Positions 28,422-64,000 of a stretch of DNA of 64,000 bases are shown piece after piece. The stretch comes from Gammaproteobacteria bacterium (GTDB taxonomy: Bacteria; Pseudomonadota; Gammaproteobacteria; GCA-001735895). The stretch spans positions 1 through 64,000 of the forward strand of contig JAAEMR010000177.1 in assembly GCA_024225395.1 (NCBI GenBank), read 5' to 3'. Positions within the stretch are counted from its first letter, which is position 1; every line of letters starts with the position of its first letter. Position numbers and translations under genes: made by a program. Under the pieces are notes generated by a model. The model worked only from the letters and a program-made list of their open reading frames with translations, ran no database searches and had not been told where the DNA came from.

Positions 28422-30179
28422 ATGGATTATACCGATACGATAGATACCTGTGAATTTGTTGACAGTTGTGTAGAACCTGAAAAAGATACCTCTTTATTAC
28501 TTCAATATCTTATTCAGATTCAGTACAGGTACAACTTTGTGCCTGAAGATGCAATTTCTCAATTACAGCACTCGCTTGATCTGGATGTTGCACATATTAA
28601 ATCTGTCATTTCCTTTTATAGTTTTCTGAATTCCTCTTTTCAGGGGCATTATCGAATACTGTTCAGCGATAATATTACCGACCGCATGCTGGGCAACCAG
28701 TCGTTGTATGAACAGTTAAAAACCTCATTAAAAAATCATAAGGTTGATATTGGATTTACCTCCTGCACGGGTTTCTGTGATCAGGGCCCCGCCATGCTGG
28801 TGAATGGAATGGCAATCAATAAACTCGATTCAAAAAGAATAACTCAAATTGCTGATCTGATTCAAAATAATCAACCGCTGGAACTCTGGCCGGAAGGTTT
28901 GTTTGTAAAAGAAGAGAATATTCAAAGGTCTGATATTCAGTTCAATTCGAAAGCGGGTGATGGAAAAGGAATTGAAGCGGCACTTGAAAATGGAAGTGAT
29001 GCAATTTTAAAAATACTGAATGATTCTGGTTTAAGAGGTCGAGGTGGTGCAGGTTTTTATACGGCTAAAAAATGGCAATTCTGCAAACAGGCGATTTCAA
29101 ATCAACATTATGTGGTTTGTAATGCCGATGAAGGAGAGCCTGGCACCTTTAAAGATCGTGTTTTACTATCAACCGATGCTCACTCTGTCATCGAAGGTAT
29201 GACTATTTGTGCTGCCGTTATCGGTGCTACAAAGGGGCTTATCTATTTACGTGGTGAGTATCGCTTTTTGGTCGACAAAATCAATGAAGTTTTACAGAAG
29301 CGGCGAACGGAAGGTTTATTAGGTCAAAATATCCTGGGTCATCAAGGTTTTAATTTCGATATCGAAATACACCTGGGGGCAGGGGCTTATATTTGTGGTG
29401 AAGAATCGGCTTTAATTGAATCACTGGAAGGCAAACGTGGAATCCCCAGGGTTCGCCCACCTTTTCCGGTGGTTGACGGTTATAAAAACAAACCTACCGT
29501 GGTGAATAATGTCGAAACCTTCTGGTCAGTAAGTCGAATTATCGTAAATGGCAGTCACTGGTTTACCCGCAAAGGAACACCACAATCTACAGGTACACGG
29601 TTACTCAGTATCAGTGGTGACTGTGAACGTCCTGGCATTTATGAATATCCATTTGGAACTACATTGACGGAAATATTAAAAGACTGTGGAGGCTCTGATG
29701 CCCAGGCTGTTCAAATGGCGGGTGCTGCGGGTACCACTGTTGTTCCGTCTGGTTTTGATCGAGCCATGAGCAACGAAGACCTGTCGACGGGTGGCTCATT
29801 CATGGTGTTAGGCCCACAACGAAACCTGATGGATTTATTACAAAACTTTGCGCAATTTTTTAAACATGAAAGCTGTGGATTTTGCACACCCTGTCGGGTA
29901 GGAACATCCATCATTGCCGATGTAATTCAGCGTTTTAAAAATGCTCAGGGTTGTGAACACGATTTAAAACAGCTACGAGATGTTTGCGGGTTAATGAATA
30001 TCAGTTGCTTTTGTGGCCTTGGCTGTACAGTGCCCACTGTTTTTCTGGATGCACTGAATCAACATAGCCAAATGTTTAAAGATCTAATGAAAACGGATTC
30101 ATCAACCCCCTGTTTTAACCTGGAAGAATCTGTCAGTGAATTTAAACAAATCACAAATCCTTCTGGACGAGGGCTTTAG
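28422..30179 (+). CDS. hoxF: NAD-reducing hydrogenase diaphorase subunit HoxF
   Basis: 585 residues, one chain with a NuoE-like N-terminal part (1-150) and a NuoF-like part. FMN/NAD motifs GRGGAGFYTAKKW, NADEGEPGTFKDR and GAYICGEESALIES; [4Fe-4S] ligands in SCGFCTPCRVGT with a distal Cys (NISCFCGLG). In the N-terminal part only the second cysteine pair (SCTGFC) is obvious; the first pair of NuoE is replaced. It oxidises or reduces NAD(H) and passes electrons via HoxU to HoxYH. First gene of hoxFUYHW; no separate hoxE. Confidence 0.95.
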   Translation: MDYTDTIDTCEFVDSCVEPEKDTSLLLQYLIQIQYRYNFVPEDAISQLQHSLDLDVAHIKSVISFYSFLNSSFQGHYRILFSDNITDRMLGNQSLYEQLKTSLKNHKVDIGFTSCTGFCDQGPAMLVNGMAINKLDSKRITQIADLIQNNQPLELWPEGLFVKEENIQRSDIQFNSKAGDGKGIEAALENGSDAILKILNDSGLRGRGGAGFYTAKKWQFCKQAISNQHYVVCNADEGEPGTFKDRVLLSTDAHSVIEGMTICAAVIGATKGLIYLRGEYRFLVDKINEVLQKRRTEGLLGQNILGHQGFNFDIEIHLGAGAYICGEESALIESLEGKRGIPRVRPPFPVVDGYKNKPTVVNNVETFWSVSRIIVNGSHWFTRKGTPQSTGTRLLSISGDCERPGIYEYPFGTTLTEILKDCGGSDAQAVQMAGAAGTTVVPSGFDRAMSNEDLSTGGSFMVLGPQRNLMDLLQNFAQFFKHESCGFCTPCRVGTSIIADVIQRFKNAQGCEHDLKQLRDVCGLMNISCFCGLGCTVPTVFLDALNQHSQMFKDLMKTDSSTPCFNLEESVSEFKQITNPSGRGL

Positions 30180-30181
30180 TT

Positions 30182-30874
30182 ATGTCTTTTTTCAACATTG
30201 ATGGTCAGCAAATAGAATTCAAACAGGGCCAGACTATCATGCAGGCGGCTCAGGATGCCGGTGTATATATTCCGCATCTTTGTTTTCACCCGGATTTTAA
30301 GGCACATGGAAGTTGTCGTGTTTGTATTGTGCAGATTAAAGGTTTGTATAGAACGGCTTGTACCACACCGGTCGTTGAGTCGATGGAAGTTATTAACATC
30401 AATGAGGAAGTTCAGCAGCATCGCCTGCAGTTACTGGAAATGTTATTTATTGAAGGCAATCATGTTTGCCCATCCTGCGAGAAAAGTGGTAGCTGTACAT
30501 TACAGTCAGTTGCTGAATATTGCGGATTGTTATCGCCTTCTTTAACGTTCAGATATCCCGATAAAAAAGTGGATGCGAGTCATGCTGATTATCTGCTTGA
30601 TTTCAATCGATGTATCTTGTGTGAACTTTGTGTTCGTGCGAGTAAAGAAGTCGATAAGAAGTCGGTGTTTGCAATTACAGGTCGTGGTCTGGATGCCAGG
30701 CTGATGGTGAATTCAACCGATGGAAAGCTGGTGAACAGTACATTTGATAAACTGGATCGAGCGGCTTCAATTTGTCCGGTGGGTGTTATTCTGCCAAAGC
30801 ATCAGGGGTTTAAAACGCCGATTGGTCAAAGAAAATTTGATATTAAAGAAATCAATAAAAGGGAACAGGACTGA
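30182..30874 (+). CDS. hoxU: NAD-reducing hydrogenase diaphorase subunit HoxU
   Basis: 230 residues, like the N-terminus of complex I NuoG. A plant-type [2Fe-2S] domain (CFHPDFKAHGSCRVC then a distal Cys), a His-Cys3 cluster site (HVCPSCEKSGSC) and a [4Fe-4S] pair (CILCELC with SICPVG). It relays electrons between HoxF and HoxY. It starts 2 bp after hoxF and overlaps hoxY by one base. Confidence 0.95.
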   Translation: MSFFNIDGQQIEFKQGQTIMQAAQDAGVYIPHLCFHPDFKAHGSCRVCIVQIKGLYRTACTTPVVESMEVININEEVQQHRLQLLEMLFIEGNHVCPSCEKSGSCTLQSVAEYCGLLSPSLTFRYPDKKVDASHADYLLDFNRCILCELCVRASKEVDKKSVFAITGRGLDARLMVNSTDGKLVNSTFDKLDRAASICPVGVILPKHQGFKTPIGQRKFDIKEINKREQD

Positions 30875-31413
30875 TGGCTGACAAAATAAAAATTGCCACT
30901 GTTTCACTTGCAGGCTGTTTTGGTTGTCACATGTCAATTCTCGACATTGATGAAAAAATTATCGACCTGGTTGAGCTGGTTGAATTTGACCGCTCACCCT
31001 TAACGGATATCAAACAGGTTTCTGAATGTGATATCGGCATTATAGAAGGTGCCGTTGCCAATGCCGAAAATGTAGAGGTGTTGAAAGATTTTCGCAAGCA
31101 ATGCAAAACGTTGGTTGCAATGGGTGCCTGTGCATTGAGTGGAGGAATTCCAGCCATGCGCAACCACTTTACGCTGGAACAGTGTTTACGGGAATCTTAT
31201 GTTAATGGAACGGGTTTAGAAAATTCATGTATCCCCGATGATGTAGAACTACCGATGTTATTGAACAAGGTTTATCCGGTTCATCAGGTGGTTAAGGTGG
31301 ATTATGTTATGCCTGGCTGCCCACCTCCTGCTGATATGATCTGGAATTTATTAACGGCTTTACTGGAAGGGCGTAAACCTGAGTTTTCTGCTGAGGACAT
31401 TCGATATGACTAG
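30874..31413 (+). CDS. hoxY: [NiFe] hydrogenase small subunit HoxY
   Basis: 179 residues. Proximal [4Fe-4S] cysteines in AGCFGCHMS, MGACALSGG and MPGCPPPAD. Short, without Tat signal or additional clusters, as expected of the cytoplasmic group 3d enzyme. Overlaps hoxH by 8 bp. Confidence 0.95.
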   Translation: MADKIKIATVSLAGCFGCHMSILDIDEKIIDLVELVEFDRSPLTDIKQVSECDIGIIEGAVANAENVEVLKDFRKQCKTLVAMGACALSGGIPAMRNHFTLEQCLRESYVNGTGLENSCIPDDVELPMLLNKVYPVHQVVKVDYVMPGCPPPADMIWNLLTALLEGRKPEFSAEDIRYD

Positions 31414-32839
31414 AAGAATAAGCGTAGACCCCATTAGTCGTGTTGAAGGTCATGGCAAGATCACGCTACAACAAGATGAAAACAATGAAATTACTCAGGC
31501 ACGTTTAAATATCGTTGAGTTTCGAGGCTTTGAAAAGTTTATCCAGGGACGGCCATACTGGGAAGTTCCTGTGCTGGTGCAACGTCTGTGTGGTATTTGT
31601 CCGGTGAGCCATCATCTGGCAGCGGCTAAAGCAACTGATATGTTAATCGGAGTCAAACAGCTCAGTCCTACGGCTGAAAAAATGCGTCGCCTTATGCATT
31701 TCGGGCAGATTCTGCAATCTCATGCATTACATTTTTTCCACTTAAGTTCACCCGATTTGTTATTCGGTTATGACGATGAAGTGAGACATCGAAATATTGT
31801 AGGTCTCATCAAAGATTTTCCTGAGCTGGCCAAACAGGGTGTGTTATTACGCAAATACGGTCAGGAAGTTATACGACTAACATCAGGAAAAAGAATTCAT
31901 GGAACCGGTGCTATCCCGGGCGGTATCAATAAAGTACTGAGCACAGATGAAAGAGACTTTCTGTTAAAGGATATCGATCAAATGATTGAATGGGCATTAT
32001 CAGCGGTGGGCGTGTTTAAGACTATCTATTATGAGCATCCGTCCTATCATCAACAGTTTGCCATGATCACCAGTAAGATGATGAGCCTGGTCACAGCGGA
32101 TGGAGCACTTGAACTCTATGATGGTGGATTGAGGGTCAAAACGCCGGATAATAATGTAATCTTTGATCATCAGGATCCAGCGAATTATCTTGACCTAATC
32201 AATGAACATGTTGAACCCTGGAGTTATATGAAATTTCCATTCCTGAAATCATTGGGTGTGGAGCAGGGCTGGTATCGTGTCGGACCACTGGCGAGGGTGA
32301 ATAATTGTGATTTTATTAATACCGACCTGGCGGAACAGGAAAGAAAAGAGTTCAAGCTATTAAATGAAGGGCTGCCTGTTCAATCGACACTGGCTTACCA
32401 TTGGGCTCGACTGATTGAATTATTGCATTGCGTAGAATCTATTCAACAACTGTTACATGATCCAGACCTGACAGCGGGAGAGTTGACGCTTAAGGGGCAT
32501 ATGCAAAACACTGGTATCGGAGTCATAGAAGCGCCCAGGGGAACCTTAATTCATCACTATGAAATCAATGAGGAAGGGCTGATCACAAAGGCCAATTTAA
32601 TCGTATCCACCACGCATAATAATCAGGCGATGAACGAATCTATCCGCCATGTTGCCAGTCAATATCTCAGTGGAAATGAAATCACTGAGCCGCTGCTCAA
32701 TCAGCTTGAAGTCGCGGTCAGAGCCTATGATCCCTGTTTATCCTGTGCTACACATGCCCTCGGGAAAATGCCACTGGAAGTTACCCTGATAGATAAAGAA
32801 GGAAAATTATTAGATCGAAAATACAAGTCTACCCAGTAA
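31406..32839 (+). CDS. hoxH: [NiFe] hydrogenase large subunit HoxH
   Basis: 477 residues. Nickel ligands C62-x2-C65 ([11 protein letters not shown]) and C444-x2-C447 with H450 ([10 protein letters not shown]). A 27-residue C-terminal extension after H450 would be removed by the endopeptidase encoded next. Group 3d bidirectional, NAD-linked type by gene context. The hyp maturation genes are not in the window. Confidence 0.96.
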
Positions 32840-41226: not shown

Positions 41227-41991
41227 TTATTTAAGCAGGCTACTGAATCCCAGTACACAGATGGCGATTAATACAGCACCGATAATGCGTTTGAATAATT
41301 CATCGTTTTGTAACATGAAATCATGTGCTTTCAAACCAATAATATGGCCAATTAAAGCAACTGGAACAAGCATCAAAGCACTTGTGGTATGCAGATCTAT
41401 GCTAAAAGCTACAAATGTACTCATTTTAACCGAAACCAGGATAAACCAGAGTACAAATAGTGTGTCTCTCAGCATATTTTTCCTGACCTGGTGCATGAAA
41501 ACGGCGACCATGAGTGGGGCTCCGGTAAGTGAAGTTCCTGACACGTACCCCCCGATTACCAGCAATAATTTATCGGTCCATCCTTTTTCACTTTGAATAC
41601 GCAGGTTAAGTAACCATAGAAATGCGTAAATAAGTGTAATACTGTAAATAATGATGATTAACCAGTTATTTGGCAGGTTCAATAAACCGAATACGCCTGC
41701 AAGCTTGGCCGGTAAAATGTACACACTGGTTTTCTTCAGATAGCCCCAATCTACATTTTTCAAACGTTTGCGCAGGGTCCAACCGGTGAATATCAATAAA
41801 TGCGTACCAATGACCGGTAGCCAGAAAAGGGGCTGATCATAAATAAACAGCATCAATGGTAAACCCAGTGCCGCACCACCAAAACCCAGTCCACTTCGTA
41901 CAAAACCTGACCAGATGAAGACCAGGCAGGTTAATAGTAATTGTGATGAAGTAAATTCAAGTAATTGAATGTTGTTTAAAAATGAGCCCAT
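41227..41991 (-). CDS. TauE/SafE-family permease (possible sulfite/sulfoacetate exporter)
   Basis: 254 residues with 7-8 hydrophobic segments and the family motif near the N-terminus (GFVRSGLGFGGAALGLPLML) and again in GGYVSGTSLTGAPLMVAVFM. TauE/SafE members are implicated in export of sulfite or sulfoacetate in sulfonate degraders, though the family is broad. Stand-alone gene; with a desulfinase elsewhere in the window a sulfite-export role is plausible but unproven. Confidence 0.78.
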   Translation of the reverse strand: MGSFLNNIQLLEFTSSQLLLTCLVFIWSGFVRSGLGFGGAALGLPLMLFIYDQPLFWLPVIGTHLLIFTGWTLRKRLKNVDWGYLKKTSVYILPAKLAGVFGLLNLPNNWLIIIIYSITLIYAFLWLLNLRIQSEKGWTDKLLLVIGGYVSGTSLTGAPLMVAVFMHQVRKNMLRDTLFVLWFILVSVKMSTFVAFSIDLHTTSALMLVPVALIGHIIGLKAHDFMLQNDELFKRIIGAVLIAICVLGFSSLLK

Positions 41992-56773: not shown

Positions 56774-57715
56774 TTACCCTATCTCCAGTCCCAGATATTT
56801 TGTCGCCATATAAATGGTGAAGGGTAAGGTGAAAAAAGAGATAAGCGTTTGATTGGTAATCAATGATGCCATCAGTTTGTAGTCGCCACCCATTTGACGC
56901 GCCAGAGCAAAACCAGATGCTGCAGTCGGGGTTGCAGCATAAATAATCAGAATGATGGCTGTTTCAGGCGGGGTAGGGATCATCAAAAGTCCCCCTAAAA
57001 CGATGACCGGGTATAGTAAAAATTTCCCCAGGCTTGATAAAACAAAAGCAGGATGAGTTTGTTTTAATCCCTGAAATCTCATACTGGCACCAATGCACAA
57101 AAGTACTACAGGTAAGGTCGCGCTGCCTAACAGGGCTGTTACATCGTGAACAATAAGAATGTGTGTCCACCCAAGGTAATTGCACATAAAACCTGAGAAA
57201 ATGGCGATCAACAAAGGGTTTCTTATTAAATCATTGACTATTTTTGTAATAAGATTCTGCTGCCCTTTATGTAAAATAATTACCAGTACAATGACGATAC
57301 TGATGTTGGTGACCGGTATCAGCACAGCGGTGGCCAGTGTGGCGATTATTAATCCACTCTCACCGAACAGCCTTTCTGAAATAGCCAGTGCGATAAATGT
57401 ATTGTGTCGTCCCGCTGCCTGCACAATGGAGCTGCCGGCTTTGTTGTCAAACTTTAACCGGTTACTTGCTAGCCAGATAATTAAAATAGTTAACAACAGG
57501 CCAGAAAGCAGAGGTGCTGATATTTGAGGTAAAAGCTCCGAACTAATAGAAATAGTGGATGTTTTGTAAAATAAAAACGCTGGAAAGAGTATCCAGTAAA
57601 CCAGTTTGTCGGCATACAGCCAGTATTCATCACTGGGCACGCTTTTTAAGCGCAAATAACTGCCCAGTAAAATAAGTGCGAAGATAGTGCCGATGGCTGA
57701 AATGATATCAATCAT
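56774..57715 (-). CDS. AEC-family transporter
   Basis: 313 residues with ten hydrophobic segments. LGSYLRLKSVPSDEYWLYAD, SIVQAAGRHNTFIALAISER and ATPTAASGFALARQMGGD are family features. AEC permeases carry organic acids such as malonate or malate. Overlaps lysR by 8 bp and so is co-expressed with it; as the only transporter of this cluster it may import the sulfinate or other acid used by the divergent enzymes. Confidence 0.85.
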   Translation of the reverse strand: MIDIISAIGTIFALILLGSYLRLKSVPSDEYWLYADKLVYWILFPAFLFYKTSTISISSELLPQISAPLLSGLLLTILIIWLASNRLKFDNKAGSSIVQAAGRHNTFIALAISERLFGESGLIIATLATAVLIPVTNISIVIVLVIILHKGQQNLITKIVNDLIRNPLLIAIFSGFMCNYLGWTHILIVHDVTALLGSATLPVVLLCIGASMRFQGLKQTHPAFVLSSLGKFLLYPVIVLGGLLMIPTPPETAIILIIYAATPTAASGFALARQMGGDYKLMASLITNQTLISFFTLPFTIYMATKYLGLEIG

Positions 57716-58601
57716 TTTTATTGCTCACGGCGAGAGCTGTTTTTGAAAGTAGTATTTCATGTAATACTTTTATCAAATCTGCATTGGGATTGGCCTCTCT
57801 CTGGATTAACCCCACTATTCTTTTAACAGGCTTTTTACCAAATGGAGAGATTACAACTTTACTGTTTAAATTTTGACAATGACTTCTTAATGGAACAATT
57901 GATACACCCAACCCTTCTGCAACCATCATCGATATGGATTCTAGAGAATCAACTGCCATATTGATTTCTACCTGAATATTTCTATTTTTTAAATGGGTAT
58001 CGATTAAATTCTCTACCCAGGAATGCTTCTTAAACTGTAAAAATGGATAACGTGATAATAACTCTGTATCCAGCAAGCCTTCAGTTCCGGGTGGAGAAAT
58101 AACAACAAGCGGTTCAGCTGCAAATGGTTGCCAGTTGAGTTCTGCTGATATGTGTTGAGGTTCGGTGACAATAGCAGCGTCTATTTCACCTTTTTGAACC
58201 TTGATCGTTAACTCCCTGGACAATCCTGTAATCAGGTTCACCAGTAAGCGAGGGTGTTTTTTTCGCATCGCTGATAAGGCACAGGGCAGGATGCCGGTGA
58301 GAACCGAGGGCACTGTACCAATATGTAATGTTCCACTGTAGTTATGTTCTATAAATGATTGTTTTAATTCATTAAATTGATTGATCAGTTGACGTGATTT
58401 TTGTGCGAGCAAGACCCCTTCGGCATTTAGAATGGGTGGGCGTTTACTGCGATCAAAAAGCAGGGTTTCAAAATCCTGTTCAAGAGCTTTTATTTGTAAA
58501 CTGATTGCTGACTGAGTAAGACCGATAGTTTCACCAGCCGCGGCAAAGCTACCCTGATCCACAACGGCTAAAAACACTTCCAGGGCGCGTAAATTCGACA
58601 T
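57708..58601 (-). CDS. LysR-family regulator of the desulfinase cluster
   Basis: 297 residues: N-terminal helix-turn-helix (VDQGSFAAAGETIGLTQSAI) and a substrate-binding domain. Divergent from the CoA-transferase gene with a dyad between them. Described 3-sulfinopropionate loci likewise place a lysR beside the CoA-transferase and desulfinase genes. Probably activates them with a pathway intermediate as inducer. Confidence 0.92.
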   Translation of the reverse strand: MSNLRALEVFLAVVDQGSFAAAGETIGLTQSAISLQIKALEQDFETLLFDRSKRPPILNAEGVLLAQKSRQLINQFNELKQSFIEHNYSGTLHIGTVPSVLTGILPCALSAMRKKHPRLLVNLITGLSRELTIKVQKGEIDAAIVTEPQHISAELNWQPFAAEPLVVISPPGTEGLLDTELLSRYPFLQFKKHSWVENLIDTHLKNRNIQVEINMAVDSLESISMMVAEGLGVSIVPLRSHCQNLNSKVVISPFGKKPVKRIVGLIQREANPNADLIKVLHEILLSKTALAVSNKND

Positions 58602-58703: not shown

Positions 58704-59930
58704 ATGTTTGATAATAATTCTCCATTGAAAGGTATCTCTGTTGTTGATATTTCAAGAATTTTAGCGGGGCCCAGTTGCACACAATTATTAGGTGATTATG
58801 GTGCTGACATTATTAAGGTCGAACGTCCACTAAAAGGTGATGATACGCGATACTGGGGACCTCCTTTTTTAAAGAATAAAGAAGGTAATGACAGCCCTGA
58901 GTCATCCTACTATTTAAGTGCTAATCGTAATAAGCGATCAATAACAATAAATATGGCAAAACCGGAAGGTCAGCAGCTGGTTCGTGATTTAGCCAGTAAC
59001 AGTGATATTTTTATTGAAAATTTTAAGGTGGGCGGTAGTCATAAATTTGGCCTCGATTACGATAGTTTAAAAAAGATAAATCCAAAGTTGATTTATTGCT
59101 CTATCTCCGGGTTTGGACAAACAGGACCCTATGCAAATTTACCGGGTTATGATTTTATGATTCAGGCCATGGGCGGGATCATGAGCCTGACCGGGCCGGA
59201 AGAGGGTGAGCCCTGTAAAGTGGGTGTAGGTATTGCAGATGTAATGTGTGGAATGTATGCCTGCACAGCTATTCTGGCTGCGTTACAACATCGGGAAAAG
59301 ACAGGAGAAGGTCAATATATAGACATTTCATTGCTTGATACTCAAGTTGCCTGGTTAGTGAACTCTGCTCAAAACTATCTTACCTCCGGCCAGCCAGCCG
59401 AACGATATGGTAATGGACACCCAAATATCGTGCCCTATGAAGTTTTCCCGACCAGTGATGGATATTTTGCTCTGGCAGTTGGCAATGATGCCCAGTTCAA
59501 GGAATTATGTAATGCTATAAAACAGCCTCAATTAGCAACTAACGAAGACTATCAAAAAAATAGTTCACGCATAGTCAACAGGAAGAAATTAATTCCAATC
59601 CTCAGAAAAAGTTTTATTGGTGACATAACGGACCATTGGTTGACGTTACTTAAGCAGCATGGCGTGCCCTGTGGACCGGTAAATAATGTAGCACAGGTTT
59701 TTAATGATCCTCAGGTTATTGCAAGAGGTATGAAACTCAATATGCCTCATCCTCATATTTCCGATGATCAAATAGATTTAATTGGTAACCCGGTGAAGTT
59801 TTCAACAACACCGGTGAGCTATCGCTATCCGCCTCCTGCTTTAGGTCAGCATACTGAACAAATATTATCTGAACGATTGCATAAAACTGACAGGGAAATT
59901 TCAAATTATCGCCAGCATGGCATTATTTAA
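58704..59930 (+). CDS. act: Class III (CaiB/BaiF) CoA-transferase
   Basis: 408 residues. LAGPSCTQLLGDYGADIIKV at the start and VGIADVMCGMYA with the catalytic Asp. The N-terminal half has RSITINMAKPEGQQLVRDL, typical of family III. It moves CoA from succinyl-CoA or another donor to a carboxylic acid. Placement 14 bp before the desulfinase gene makes 3-sulfinopropionate the likely acceptor, as for Act of Variovorax. Symbol given by analogy. Confidence 0.8.
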   Translation: MFDNNSPLKGISVVDISRILAGPSCTQLLGDYGADIIKVERPLKGDDTRYWGPPFLKNKEGNDSPESSYYLSANRNKRSITINMAKPEGQQLVRDLASNSDIFIENFKVGGSHKFGLDYDSLKKINPKLIYCSISGFGQTGPYANLPGYDFMIQAMGGIMSLTGPEEGEPCKVGVGIADVMCGMYACTAILAALQHREKTGEGQYIDISLLDTQVAWLVNSAQNYLTSGQPAERYGNGHPNIVPYEVFPTSDGYFALAVGNDAQFKELCNAIKQPQLATNEDYQKNSSRIVNRKKLIPILRKSFIGDITDHWLTLLKQHGVPCGPVNNVAQVFNDPQVIARGMKLNMPHPHISDDQIDLIGNPVKFSTTPVSYRYPPPALGQHTEQILSERLHKTDREISNYRQHGII

Positions 59931-59944
59931 CATGGGAAATATGT

Positions 59945-61123
59945 ATGAACGTATTAACTGAAAAACAGGTAGAGATTCAACAAAATGCAAGAACCTTTGC
60001 ACAAAGATTTATTGCCCCGCATGCGGCAGAAATAGACAGGACAGAAAGTTACCCCTGGAACAATGTAAAGGCATTGACCGACGCAGGTTATATGGGAATG
60101 ACCATTCCTGAAAACTACGGAGGGTTAGGACTGAGTTACATGGATACAGTCCTGGTAGTGGAAGAAATGGCCAAGGTATGTGGTGTAACTGCACGCATAG
60201 TTGTTGAAGGGAATATGGGGGCATTAAGTGCCATCATGAAATACGGTAATGATGAACAAAAGAAAATGTCTGCGGCGCTGGTTCTGGCAGGGGATAAACC
60301 CGCAATTTGTATTACTGAACCCGGCGCAGGAAGTGCAGCAACCGAGATGACAACTCGTGCCGATAAAAAAGGAGATCATTATATTTTGAATGGCACTAAA
60401 CACTGGATCACCGGTGGAGGTGTGTCAAAACTTCATCTTATTTTTGCACGTGTTTTCGAAGATGGTGTTGAGCAGGGCATCGGTGGTTTTATTGCGATCA
60501 GGGGAGAGTCAGAGGGTTTAATCGTTGGAACCAGGGAACCTGCTATGGGCTTGCGTGGAATACCGGAAACAGAAATTATGTTTGATAATCTTGAGTTGTC
60601 AGTAGATCGACTGATACAGCCACCGAAAGGATTAGCCAGAGGTTTTGCCGGTTTAATGAATGCCTATAACAGTCAAAGAGTCGGAGCTGGAACAGTTGCT
60701 CTGGGTGTGGCGCAGGGTGCTTATGAACTGGCTCTCGAATATATTCAACAACGAGAGCAGTTTGGTCGCCCGGTTTGCGAATTTCAGGGGTTGCAATGGA
60801 TGCTGGTGGATATGAATATTCAGCTGGAAGCTGCTCGAGCGTTAATATATAAAGCAGCAGTCAGTGGTAATGAAGGATTTCCAGATATGGCTGATGCTGC
60901 GAGAGCAAAAGTTCTGGCGTCAGAGTCAGCAATTAAAGTGACCAATGATGCATTACAATTATTTGGTGCTGCTGGATACTCCAGAAACTTACCGCTTGAA
61001 CGCATGGTTCGAGATGCACGTATGTTTACCATTGGTGGTGGAACGGCACAAATTCTACGAACCGTAATCGCTTCGCGTTTACTCGAAAGAAAACTACCGC
61101 AAACAAGAAATGGATTTGTATGA
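59945..61123 (+). CDS. acd: 3-sulfinopropionyl-CoA desulfinase (acyl-CoA dehydrogenase fold)
   Basis: 392 residues. Acyl-CoA dehydrogenase fold with FAD. Three departures mark it: Arg84 (VTAR) in the substrate pocket; Gln244 (AYNSQRVGAG) where isovaleryl-CoA dehydrogenase carries its base; and Gly in FTIGGGTAQILR where most family members have the catalytic Glu. The characterised desulfinase of Advenella mimigardefordensis, as I recall it, shares all three (Arg84, Gln246). It should release sulfite from 3-sulfinopropionyl-CoA and leave propionyl-CoA, without net dehydrogenation. Confidence 0.82.
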   Translation: MNVLTEKQVEIQQNARTFAQRFIAPHAAEIDRTESYPWNNVKALTDAGYMGMTIPENYGGLGLSYMDTVLVVEEMAKVCGVTARIVVEGNMGALSAIMKYGNDEQKKMSAALVLAGDKPAICITEPGAGSAATEMTTRADKKGDHYILNGTKHWITGGGVSKLHLIFARVFEDGVEQGIGGFIAIRGESEGLIVGTREPAMGLRGIPETEIMFDNLELSVDRLIQPPKGLARGFAGLMNAYNSQRVGAGTVALGVAQGAYELALEYIQQREQFGRPVCEFQGLQWMLVDMNIQLEAARALIYKAAVSGNEGFPDMADAARAKVLASESAIKVTNDALQLFGAAGYSRNLPLERMVRDARMFTIGGGTAQILRTVIASRLLERKLPQTRNGFV

Positions 61124-61224
61124 GGTAGACAGTCGACGGAAATTTTGTTGACATGAAATCTTGCAGTCAAGAATAATTTTGACTTTTGACTTAAAAAACT
61201 TGTAACTATTTTTCAGGTAAAAAA

Positions 61225-62835
61225 ATGGCTAATGCAGCAGAATTAATCGCTCAAAGACTTTATCAGGCAGGTGTTAGAAAAGCTTTCGGTATTCCCGGTG
61301 GTGAAGTGTTAACGCTGGTCAAGGCGCTTGATGAACAGGGTATAGAGTTCGTCATGAGCAAACATGAGAATGCCGGTGGCTTCATGGCTGAGGGCGTTTA
61401 TCATGCGACGGGATCACCGGCTGTACTTGTTGCAACCGTTGGCCCCGGTGTTGCAAATGCTATTAATTTTATTGCTAATGCTGAGCAGGATAGAGTGCCC
61501 GTCATTTACCTGACAGGACGAGTTGATGCCAAAGAAGCGGTGACTTATACGCACCAGGTATTTGACCATGCCGCATTACTAAGACCGATAACTAAAGCTT
61601 CGCTGGAAGTTACAGATGGGGCGGTAGAAGAAATTATCGATAAGGCCGTGGCGATTGCGATGGATGAACCACCCGGGCCGGTTCATGTTGACCTGCCGAT
61701 AACAGTCGCGGTAACTCAACAGTTAGAAAGGTCAGTACAAAACCGTGCAACTGTATCAAAAGGAGTCGCTTCAGGATCTCAATTTGAACTAGCTAAACAG
61801 TGGTTGAGTAAAGCGAACAGTCCACTGGTTATTGCAGGTGTAGAAGTTCTGTATCAACAAGCTGAAAATGATGTGGCAGAATTTTGCTCGACACATGAAA
61901 TCCCGTTAATAACTTCTTATAAAGCTAAGGGAGTTTTATCTGAAGATCATGAAATGAGCCTTGGAGGGGCTGGGTTATCGCCAAAGGCTAACAAGTTACT
62001 GATTCCGCTGGTGACAAAAGCCGATGTTATTATCCTGGCGGGTTATGACCCCATAGAAATGCGCAGTGACTGGCGAAATATCTGGCCTGAAAATAGTAAA
62101 GTGATTGAGTTAACTGCCCGGCCCAATATCCATTATATGCATCAGGCGGATGTTAGTTTTGTTTGTGATATTGGTAATAGCCTGAAACAGTTAGCAAGTG
62201 CTGTTCAGGCTGACAAGCAGTACTGGAATGATGCTGCAAATGAATACACCCGGGAAGCCCTAAATCTGGCCTTTCAGCCCGAAGCTGACTGGGGTCCGGC
62301 AAGGCTTATCAGCACTGCACGTGAAATTTTACCTGTAGACACAGTCGCTTCGGTTGATACCGGTGCTCACCGTATCTTGTTGAGCCAGATGTGGACTTGC
62401 TTTAAACCTCGAACACTTATCCAGTCTACAGGTTTATGTACCATGGGCTGTGCACTGCCTTTAGCCGTTGGTTATAAAATGATGAAACCCGAAGTGCCCG
62501 TTGTGGCATTTACCGGTGATGCGGGTCTGGAAATGGTGTTAGGAGATCTGGCTACCTGTCGAGATAGCAGACAGCCTGTTATTATCATTGTTTTTGTTGA
62601 TACCTCTTTAGCCTTAATAGAGTTTAAGCAACGTGAAATGGGTTATAAAAATGTCGGTGTTGATTCTGTTGGTGATACGGATTTTGTAAAAGTTGCTGAA
62701 GGTTTTAATCTTGAAGCTAGCTGGGTTAATGATGCAGAAAGTTTTACTGTTGCACTTAAATCAGCGTTAACAAGTTCAAAATCAACCTTGCTGGCCTGCC
62801 GAATTGGAATGAAAAGTTATGATGGTAAAATTTAA
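61225..62835 (+). CDS. ThDP-dependent enzyme, acetolactate-synthase-like
   Basis: 536 residues in the three-domain POX/ALS layout. Catalytic Glu48 (KHENAGGFMAEG) is present. The ThDP motif is GDAG (431-434) with DT at 459-460 where GDG and NN are standard, so cofactor binding is atypical. Too short for Xsc (about 590) and unlike the small two-subunit sulfopyruvate decarboxylase. It lies between the desulfinase and an aminotransferase gene. A 2-oxo acid decarboxylase or a carboligase are the two options. Substrate unknown. Confidence 0.8.
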   Translation: MANAAELIAQRLYQAGVRKAFGIPGGEVLTLVKALDEQGIEFVMSKHENAGGFMAEGVYHATGSPAVLVATVGPGVANAINFIANAEQDRVPVIYLTGRVDAKEAVTYTHQVFDHAALLRPITKASLEVTDGAVEEIIDKAVAIAMDEPPGPVHVDLPITVAVTQQLERSVQNRATVSKGVASGSQFELAKQWLSKANSPLVIAGVEVLYQQAENDVAEFCSTHEIPLITSYKAKGVLSEDHEMSLGGAGLSPKANKLLIPLVTKADVIILAGYDPIEMRSDWRNIWPENSKVIELTARPNIHYMHQADVSFVCDIGNSLKQLASAVQADKQYWNDAANEYTREALNLAFQPEADWGPARLISTAREILPVDTVASVDTGAHRILLSQMWTCFKPRTLIQSTGLCTMGCALPLAVGYKMMKPEVPVVAFTGDAGLEMVLGDLATCRDSRQPVIIIVFVDTSLALIEFKQREMGYKNVGVDSVGDTDFVKVAEGFNLEASWVNDAESFTVALKSALTSSKSTLLACRIGMKSYDGKI

Positions 62836-62924
62836 TCGACCCGGAGATGGTTTGACCACTTCCTAAGCAGGGAAAATATTGATACATTCTCCGTCATCAA
62901 AAAGAACAGCTCACTTGAGAAAAT

Positions 62925-64000
62925 ATGAAACTATCTAAATCCGCAGAAAGTATTACAACTTCACCCATCTTAATCATTGCAGCAGAAATAAATAAAAAAA
63001 TACAGCAGGGTGAAAAAGTATTTAATCTGACTGTTGGCGACTTTAATTCGCAAATTTATCCCATTCCTGATCGTCTAACCGAGTTAACGATAGACGCTTA
63101 TAAACAGCATGAAACAAATTACCCGGGAGCTTTTGGTATCGATCAGCTTCGTCAGGCTATTATCGATTTGTTAAAAGATTACTGTGATATTGATGTAGCC
63201 ATGAGTGAAGTACAGGTCGCAAGCGGTTCACGTCCTTTGATCTATTCATTTTACAAAACTATTGTCGATCCGGGTGATAAAGTTATTTTCCCGGTTCCAT
63301 CGTGGAATAATGATTACTATACTGAAATGCATAGTGCTGAAGCGGTCATAGTCGAAACATCCCCCGAGACTAATTTTTTTCCGACTGCAGAAAGTTTACG
63401 ACCTGTTATTCAAGATGCCGTTCTGCTTTCTTTATGTTCACCGCAAAATCCTACCGGCACCATTCTTGATAAACAACAGTTAATCGATATTTGTGATCTG
63501 GTTGTTGAAGAGAATAAACGCCGGTCTGTAGATGAAAAGCCTTTGTATGTCATGTTCGATCAGGTTTACTGGTTGCTGACATTTGGAAATTCTAATTTCC
63601 ATCATCCCTTAGCCGTTTGTCCAGACATTAAACCATATGCAGTTTTCATAGATGGTATATCCAAATCTTTGGCGGGTACCGGTGTCAGGGTAGGCTGGGC
63701 AACAGGACCAGCGTCTATCATGGCTCCAATGCGTGCTTTTATCGCACATATTGGAGCATGGGCACCTAAACCTGAACAGATTGCTACAGGACTTTTCCTT
63801 GCTGAGAAAGCACCCGTTAATCAATTCCTCACAGATTTTCGGGCGCAGTTACAAGGTAGACTTGACGGGTTTTACCAGGGCTTTATGGCTTTAAAAGAAA
63901 AAGGGTATGATGTGGATGCTATAGCTCCGCAGGCCGCTATATATCTTTCTATAAGATTAAACCTTAAAGGTAAAAAAACTGTCGATGGCAAACTTTTGAA
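62925..64000 (+). CDS. Class I aminotransferase, 3' end cut by window edge
   Basis: 358 codons to the right edge, no stop reached, start MKLSKSAESI with GAGAAAAT upstream. Fold type I: GDFNSQIYPI at the start, YPGAFGIDQLRQAI, SLCSPQNPTGTIL (PLP Asn), FDQVYW, and the Schiff-base lysine in SKSLAGTGVRVGW. AspB-like. Follows the ThDP gene by 89 bp in the same direction, so it may provide the 2-oxo acid used by that enzyme. Amino-acid specificity not readable. Confidence 0.88.
   Translation, partial: MKLSKSAESITTSPILIIAAEINKKIQQGEKVFNLTVGDFNSQIYPIPDRLTELTIDAYKQHETNYPGAFGIDQLRQAIIDLLKDYCDIDVAMSEVQVASGSRPLIYSFYKTIVDPGDKVIFPVPSWNNDYYTEMHSAEAVIVETSPETNFFPTAESLRPVIQDAVLLSLCSPQNPTGTILDKQQLIDICDLVVEENKRRSVDEKPLYVMFDQVYWLLTFGNSNFHHPLAVCPDIKPYAVFIDGISKSLAGTGVRVGWATGPASIMAPMRAFIAHIGAWAPKPEQIATGLFLAEKAPVNQFLTDFRAQLQGRLDGFYQGFMALKEKGYDVDAIAPQAAIYLSIRLNLKGKKTVDGKLL

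Follow-up and report, generated by a model that had tools for sequence, protein, structure and literature searches.

A gene for a thiamine diphosphate (ThDP)-dependent enzyme lies directly downstream of a 3-sulfinopropanoyl-CoA desulfinase gene at the right edge of the DNA stretch analyzed here (the window; positions 1 to 64,000 of contig JAAEMR010000177.1, here C177, from a Gammaproteobacteria bacterium). We propose that this gene encodes an accessory enzyme for entry into the 3-sulfinopropionate (3SP) pathway, likely a 2-oxo-acid decarboxylase that would make 3SP independently of the 3-mercaptopropionate dioxygenase Mdo, perhaps from homocysteine sulfinate. We put the probability of this reading just below even, at about 0.48. 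The identity of the desulfinase, the conserved linkage of its gene to the ThDP gene, the absence of Mdo, and a single locus that carries the complete set of genes are read from the sequences themselves. The reaction of the ThDP enzyme, every substrate, and any participation of the aminotransferase (AT) encoded next to it are what we infer.

What is known of 3SP catabolism comes from bacteria growing on synthetic thioethers and disulfides, where Mdo supplies the compound. In lineages from sea and soil that lack Mdo, the tie between ThDP and desulfinase genes suggests that 3SP is probably an intermediate in nature, formed by some other route. This tie points to an undescribed feed of organic sulfur into the 3SP pathway, and the ThDP gene is the one to test. 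If the proposal is true, organic-sulfur cycling gains a step that releases sulfite, and a set of genes now annotated as acetolactate synthase (ALS) or simply as thiamine pyrophosphate-binding protein acquires a function.

The desulfinase locus

The host genome (4.45 Mb; estimated completeness, 98.85%) has Gammaproteobacteria metagenome-assembled genomes (MAGs) as its nearest named relatives, and the locus lies on its 88,099-base contig C177. On one strand, a class III CoA-transferase gene is followed by the genes for the desulfinase, the ThDP enzyme, a class I AT, a TAXI receptor, a fused TRAP permease, and Usp (coordinates in Table 1). The gaps measure 14 bp (CoA-transferase/desulfinase), 101 bp (desulfinase/ThDP), and 89 bp (ThDP/AT), and further right 222 bp (AT/TAXI), 182 bp (TAXI/TRAP), and 40 bp (TRAP/Usp). 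An earlier note on the window had reported the ThDP and AT genes beside the desulfinase; both are real and intact, and they lie where it had placed them. The window cuts the AT at residue 358.

The desulfinase cleared the cutoff of the NCBI equivalog NF042439 (667 bits versus 600). Its best match among solved structures was 5af7 (E = 6e-161), which we take to be the structure of the Advenella desulfinase, and it follows the residue pattern of 5af7, with Arg84, a Gln near 246, and no catalytic Glu. Arg84 and Gln244 are kept in all 42 aligned relatives, and GGT replaces EGT, the site of the acyl-CoA dehydrogenase catalytic Glu, in the same 42. We assume for Arg84, Gln244, and the lost Glu the functional roles generally ascribed to them. 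By family membership the call as 3-sulfinopropanoyl-CoA desulfinase is sound, and release of sulfite from 3SP-CoA is its predicted activity. For the CoA-transferase, the closest NCBIfam model was succinate--glutarate CoA-transferase (488 bits, below the cutoff of 750).

The ThDP gene is linked to the desulfinase gene

We compared 84 ThDP loci. Of these, 80 are named loci for which similarity to the ThDP protein was the sole selection criterion; the others are the window and three loci on plasmids. A desulfinase gene lies within 400 bp of the ThDP gene in 43 of the 84 and anywhere in the fetched stretch in 48, and 37 contain a CoA-transferase gene; these counts are not independent, since near-duplicates are present among the loci. 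The loci span Alpha-, Beta-, and Gammaproteobacteria and SAR324, and those with a desulfinase are scattered over the ThDP tree. LysR genes border many of the desulfinase/ThDP loci. One contig labelled Anaerolineae (JANQQD010000076.1, locus L049) encodes a ThDP protein near-identical to that of locus L056, with the same neighbors, and may be mis-binned alphaproteobacterial DNA.

At the level of whole genomes, the co-occurrence exceeds chance: the desulfinase is present in 29 of 44 genomes picked solely for the ThDP gene, but in 6 of 323 genomes of a gammaproteobacterial class sample that includes the host. Within the Burkholderiales family around Achromobacter (268 genomes), all six ThDP genomes fall among the 22 with a desulfinase (hypergeometric P = 1.5e-7, relatedness ignored). 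Among 95 relatives, all four ThDP genomes fall among the five with a desulfinase. Because the ThDP gene usually implies a desulfinase while the desulfinase often occurs without the ThDP gene, the pattern is that of an optional entry route. The survey of desulfinase neighborhoods for which the earlier note had called places the ThDP gene with the desulfinase module over a broad phylogenetic range.

We rejected the idea that the desulfinase always comes with the ThDP gene: many desulfinase genomes lack the latter and have other neighbors instead, among them cysteine dioxygenase (CDO), TauD-like, sarcosine-oxidase-like, and CuyA-like proteins. On a short contig without ThDP or CoA-transferase genes (L208, G022:C291), the desulfinase adjoins a pyridoxal phosphate (PLP) enzyme resembling cysteate sulfo-lyase (357 bits to the CuyA model; cutoff, 450). 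The desulfinases of L125 (G234) and L126 (G123) are encoded near TauD-like dioxygenases, and L126 also has an NtaA/DmoA-type FMN monooxygenase; these are possible further entry routes to 3SP. In L124 (G125:C175), two genes for FAD proteins come after the desulfinase gene; their matches are of the ThiO/SoxB and SoxA types, possibly indicating an amine-oxidizing entry.

The ThDP gene lies in the position of mdo

Described 3SP loci run CoA-transferase, desulfinase, Mdo. The locus of Advenella mimigardefordensis DPN7 (MIM_c31370-31430) holds these three (PMC5373536), and that of Diaphorobacter sp. HDW4B has the same order, with CDO in third place. Like the host locus, both have a class III CoA-transferase gene followed by the desulfinase gene, with LysR genes around them. 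However, their third gene encodes Mdo/CDO, whereas the third gene of the host encodes the ThDP enzyme and is followed by the AT and TAXI-TRAP genes.

A search of the host genome, at its completeness of 98.85%, found no PF05995 protein (CDO_I, the family of CDO and Mdo). Mdo is found in none of the 84 ThDP loci, and PF05995 occurs in only 12 of the 44 ThDP genomes, leaving 32 without it. Because the host has no CDO/Mdo homolog, 3SP, if made in the cell, must arise by a non-Mdo route. Given the order of the described loci and the lack of Mdo in the host and in these 32 genomes, the ThDP gene occupies the slot of Mdo and probably takes its role as the source of 3SP. We regard the host locus as a variant of the known 3SP pathway.

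The author of the earlier note had also been aware of no such ThDP and AT genes in described 3SP loci. We found no paper on this ThDP family and no function described for it in the literature, and the papers that we found on homocysteine sulfinate concern mammals, biomarkers, and glutamate decarboxylase. There is one caveat: one gene of the act/acdA cluster in Variovorax paradoxus TBEA6, VPARA_05550, is named as a "putative acetolactate synthase IlvX," and the IlvX protein was raised on thiodipropionate (TDP) and on 3SP (PMC6370202). The TDP cluster comprises acdA (05440), act (05450), ilvX (05550), fox (05580), and mdo (05600). It resembles the host locus in having an ALS-named gene within the act/acdA cluster. 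However, ilvX is not adjacent to the desulfinase gene, and TBEA6 also has mdo and a 2-hydroxy-acid dehydrogenase (Fox). IlvX, which we liken to the ThDP enzyme by name and cluster only, may be its ortholog; if so, the ThDP-desulfinase association has been seen before but not interpreted.

Family and active site of the ThDP enzyme

The ThDP protein has all three Pfam TPP domains (PF02776, PF00205, and PF02775). Its catalytic Glu and Mg-binding Asp pair (E48, D432, and D459) are present in all 81 aligned family members, and its AlphaFold2 model has a pLDDT of 91.6. The best NCBIfam match was the ALS model PRK08322, yet at 349 bits against a cutoff of 509. The AlsS model gave 306 bits against 510, and all curated ALS cutoffs were missed. 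The catabolic Bacillus ALS AlsS (4rji) is among the closest in both fold and sequence, with a Z score of 42, 27% identity (as for solved ALS structures in general, about 27%), and a common THQ..D.AAL motif. In AlsS, Q424 and Q487 position the second pyruvate (PMC9469723). The corresponding residues of the ThDP enzyme are Cys405 and Lys468, invariant across the aligned family. The replacement of both glutamines disfavors acetolactate synthesis, and neither these residues nor the scores identify the enzyme as an ALS of the AlsS/PRK08322 type. A natural reading of this active site, although no proof, is that the ThDP enzyme decarboxylates a 2-oxo acid whose tail is anionic.

These data also bear on the possibility that the ThDP enzyme is an ordinary ALS-like housekeeping enzyme placed here by accident. 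We consider this very improbable: PRK08322 as the best model speaks for it, but the protein is under every curated ALS cutoff, has Cys/Lys at the AlsS glutamine sites, forms a separate long-branched clade in the tree, is linked to the desulfinase across unrelated lineages, and accompanies other ThDP paralogs in the host genome, to which it is 22 to 27% identical.

A proposed route to 3SP

In the route that we propose, TAXI-TRAP would import a glutamate-like compound. Characterized TAXI receptors bind glutamate or 2-oxoglutarate (PMC11574862). The imported amino acid would be transaminated to a 2-oxo acid, for which the adjacent AT is the candidate in the host. To judge from its family, linkage, and active site, the ThDP enzyme would most likely decarboxylate a 2-oxo acid with a terminal sulfur oxyanion, most simply 2-oxo-4-sulfinobutyrate, to 3-sulfinopropanal. 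An aldehyde dehydrogenase (ALDH) of the succinate semialdehyde dehydrogenase (SSADH) type, encoded elsewhere in the host genome, would oxidize the aldehyde to 3SP. Finally, the CoA-transferase would convert 3SP to 3SP-CoA, and the desulfinase would convert this to sulfite and propionyl-CoA, steps that fit the families to which the two proteins belong.

The scheme works like the AruH/AruI arginine transaminase pathway, in which an AT, a ThDP-dependent 2-oxo-acid decarboxylase, and then an ALDH act in turn. However, the ThDP protein scored 235 bits with the 5-guanidino-2-oxopentanoate decarboxylase model, whose cutoff is 500, and its substrate is expected to differ from that of AruI. Carboxylate analogs (aspartate or glutamate, succinate semialdehyde, and succinate) are what the enzymes encoded nearby usually handle, as would be required if a sulfinate replaced the carboxylate. 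Likewise, the sulfinate analogs of glutamate, 2-oxoglutarate, succinate semialdehyde, and succinate match the enzyme types found.

The full gene set stands together in one locus. On plasmid pBB1 of Cupriavidus necator N-1, genes for an AT, the ThDP enzyme, an ALDH, and an M20 deacylase lie beside the CoA-transferase and desulfinase genes. The ALDH is nearest to SSADH (606 bits, just below the cutoff of 646), and the AT is nearest to aspartate transaminase. The host has an SSADH-like gene whose product is 52% identical to the Cupriavidus ALDH, on another contig.

The window AT has aspartate aminotransferases A/B as its nearest solved structures. Its nearest model is the aspartate aminotransferase PRK06107, with 136 bits for the fragment in the window against a cutoff of 617. 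An AT gene lies within 100 bp behind the ThDP gene in three genomes of the family, and because of this position a role of the window AT in the 3SP route is plausible, though unproven. Pandoraea, Achromobacter, Cupriavidus, and two MAG loci (L065 and L066) have, near the ThDP gene, an AT of a different subfamily (nearest to aspartate transaminase), whose gene comes before the ThDP gene in the three named genera. The Burkholderiales ATs also have PRK06107 as the nearest model and also miss its cutoff, at 443 to 452 bits.

In its fullest form, the proposal is a new catabolism of an amino-acid sulfinate. A glutamate-like sulfinate (homocysteine sulfinate) would be taken up and transaminated, a new ThDP family would decarboxylate the product, and an SSADH-type enzyme would oxidize the result to 3SP, which would then be activated with CoA and lose its sulfinate group as sulfite to leave propionyl-CoA. 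Horizontal transfer would have carried this pathway among marine and soil bacteria. We regard this complete version as rather doubtful.

Counterevidence and alternative explanations

Several observations weigh against the entry-enzyme proposal. The earlier note had suggested that the ALDH gene needed for the route may lie beyond the window. We read the remaining 24 kb to the right, up to the contig end at 88099, and found no PF00171 match anywhere on C177; an ALDH gene adjoins the ThDP gene in only 1 of the 84 loci. Of the AT-ThDP-ALDH chain suggested in that note, the complete set is seen in C. necator, while in the host the AT is separable (see below) and the contig lacks an ALDH. To our knowledge, homocysteine sulfinate is not an abundant environmental compound. 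Furthermore, 15 ThDP loci, mostly of one clade (Roseibium and its kin), have a CoA-transferase and no desulfinase, and no desulfinase was found anywhere in the Roseibium-type genomes searched. The ThDP gene therefore does not always come with a desulfinase, and its reaction need not involve a sulfinate. Deletion of ilvX in TBEA6 gave no TDP phenotype (PMC6370202), a dispensability that is expected if IlvX serves another entry route.

The remaining counterevidence concerns the AT. Orthologs of the window AT, 67 to 82% identical, occur with TAXI and without CoA-transferase, desulfinase, or ThDP genes in three relatives, G007, G008, and G010 (loci L200, G007:C529; L202, G008:C88; and L201, G010:C398), two of which also have TRAP and Usp. 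We therefore rejected the AT as an obligate partner of the ThDP enzyme. In G007, the LysR and AEC carrier genes directly face the AT gene, and the CoA-transferase-desulfinase-ThDP trio is gone exactly between LysR and AT. The G008 and G010 cassettes have a second class I AT upstream, with an NAD-glutamate dehydrogenase gene beyond it in G008. Conversely, G032 has the trio with no AT immediately behind it. The AT-TAXI cassette can therefore be separated from the trio, and its role may lie in plain glutamate-type metabolism. The notion that the AT belongs to the desulfinase locus holds insofar as Burkholderiales pair the ThDP gene with the other AT subfamily, and it is weakened by the separability of the window AT.

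These observations would suit an alternative in which two units simply abut in the host: the trio, and a separate AT-TAXI-TRAP-Usp cassette that handles a glutamate-like amino acid. The ThDP enzyme would then work with the desulfinase, and the AT would not. We consider this arrangement quite possible, though short of probable. Against it stand the three genomes in which the AT gene closely follows the ThDP gene, the independent pairing of the ThDP gene with another AT in Burkholderiales, and the SAR324 locus L048, where a TAXI-TRAP pair 62 to 64% identical to that of the host is joined to CoA-transferase, desulfinase, and ThDP genes without an AT.

The same decarboxylase route might instead handle another sulfur substrate, taking homocysteate to 3-sulfopropionate or methionine or methionine sulfoxide to methylthio- or methylsulfinyl-propionate. 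An MsrB (SelR) gene lies at or one gene past the ThDP gene in nine Rhodospirillales-type loci (L046, L047, L050, L054, L062, L064, L073, L084, and L088), and elsewhere the desulfinase relatives stand beside the cysteate-lyase-like enzyme and the TauD-like and FMN monooxygenases described above. However, the desulfinase scores above the cutoff of the 3-sulfinopropanoyl-CoA equivalog and keeps Arg84 and Gln244, conserved in all 42 aligned relatives, as in 5af7. It also lacks the Glu base that would be wanted for beta-elimination, if, as we assume, the general acyl-CoA dehydrogenase mechanism applies. We judge such substrates unlikely.

Finally, instead of a free 2-oxo acid, the ThDP enzyme could take a CoA thioester, or it could be a carboligase; the adjacent CoA-transferase would activate its substrate, as with formyl-CoA transferase and oxalyl-CoA decarboxylase in oxalate breakdown. 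The direct adjacency of CoA-transferase and ThDP genes in the 15 loci without desulfinase would suit this, and ALS, HKA synthase, and 2-hydroxyacyl-CoA lyases (HACL) are among the fold matches at similar Z scores (38.6 to 39.6 for oxalyl-CoA decarboxylase and HACL structures versus 42 for ALS). The structure comparison did not tell decarboxylase and carboligase apart. Nevertheless, the ThDP sequence is nearer to ALS (about 212 bits) than to oxalyl-CoA decarboxylase or HACL (about 124 bits or less), 18 loci with enough flank show neither CoA-transferase nor desulfinase beside the ThDP gene, and in C. necator the gene is followed by an ALDH gene, which suits a free aldehyde product. This alternative seems distinctly improbable to us. 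As a separate observation, in L093 and other Roseibium/Labrenzia loci the CoA-transferase-ThDP pair lies immediately upstream of apparent panC and panB, which may mean that members of this ThDP family use another substrate there.

Other features of the window

The AEC carrier and LysR pair to the left of the operon is also found in loci L038 and L040, and at 28% and 35% identity on C. necator pBB1. A promoter-like match precedes the ThDP gene and is only a hint that this gene could have its own promoter; such matches are rarer in the region than in shuffled sequence.

Table 1. Features at the right edge of the window (positions in the window, which match those of C177)
Feature	Position	Strand	Basis or remark
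AEC-family carrier (PF03547 Mem_trans)	56774..57715	-	Pfam
LysR-type regulator, divergent from the operon	57708..58601	-	Pfam HTH_1 + LysR_substrate
Class III CoA-transferase, Act-like; presumed succinyl-CoA:3-sulfinopropionate CoA-transferase	58704..59930	+	PF02515
3-Sulfinopropanoyl-CoA desulfinase (Acd), by family	59945..61123	+	NF042439; best PDB match 5af7
Sigma-70-like promoter match TTGACA-18-AATAAT (11/12), between desulfinase and ThDP genes	61148..61177	+	
ThDP-dependent enzyme, ALS-like subfamily; proposed 2-oxo-acid decarboxylase	61225..62835	+	536 aa; three TPP_enzyme Pfam domains
Class I PLP aminotransferase	62925..64000, continuing to contig position 64181	+	PF00155; 418 aa in full

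To the right of Usp, reading of the translations revealed a DUF6866 protein and formate-dehydrogenase-like genes. Farther left in the window, positions 28422 to 32839 likely encode a soluble NAD-linked [NiFe] hydrogenase, with a Nuo51/2Fe-2S fusion subunit and a NiFe large subunit. At 41227 to 41991, 17 kb to the left of the operon, the minus strand encodes a TauE/SafE-family (PF01925) exporter that could export sulfite.

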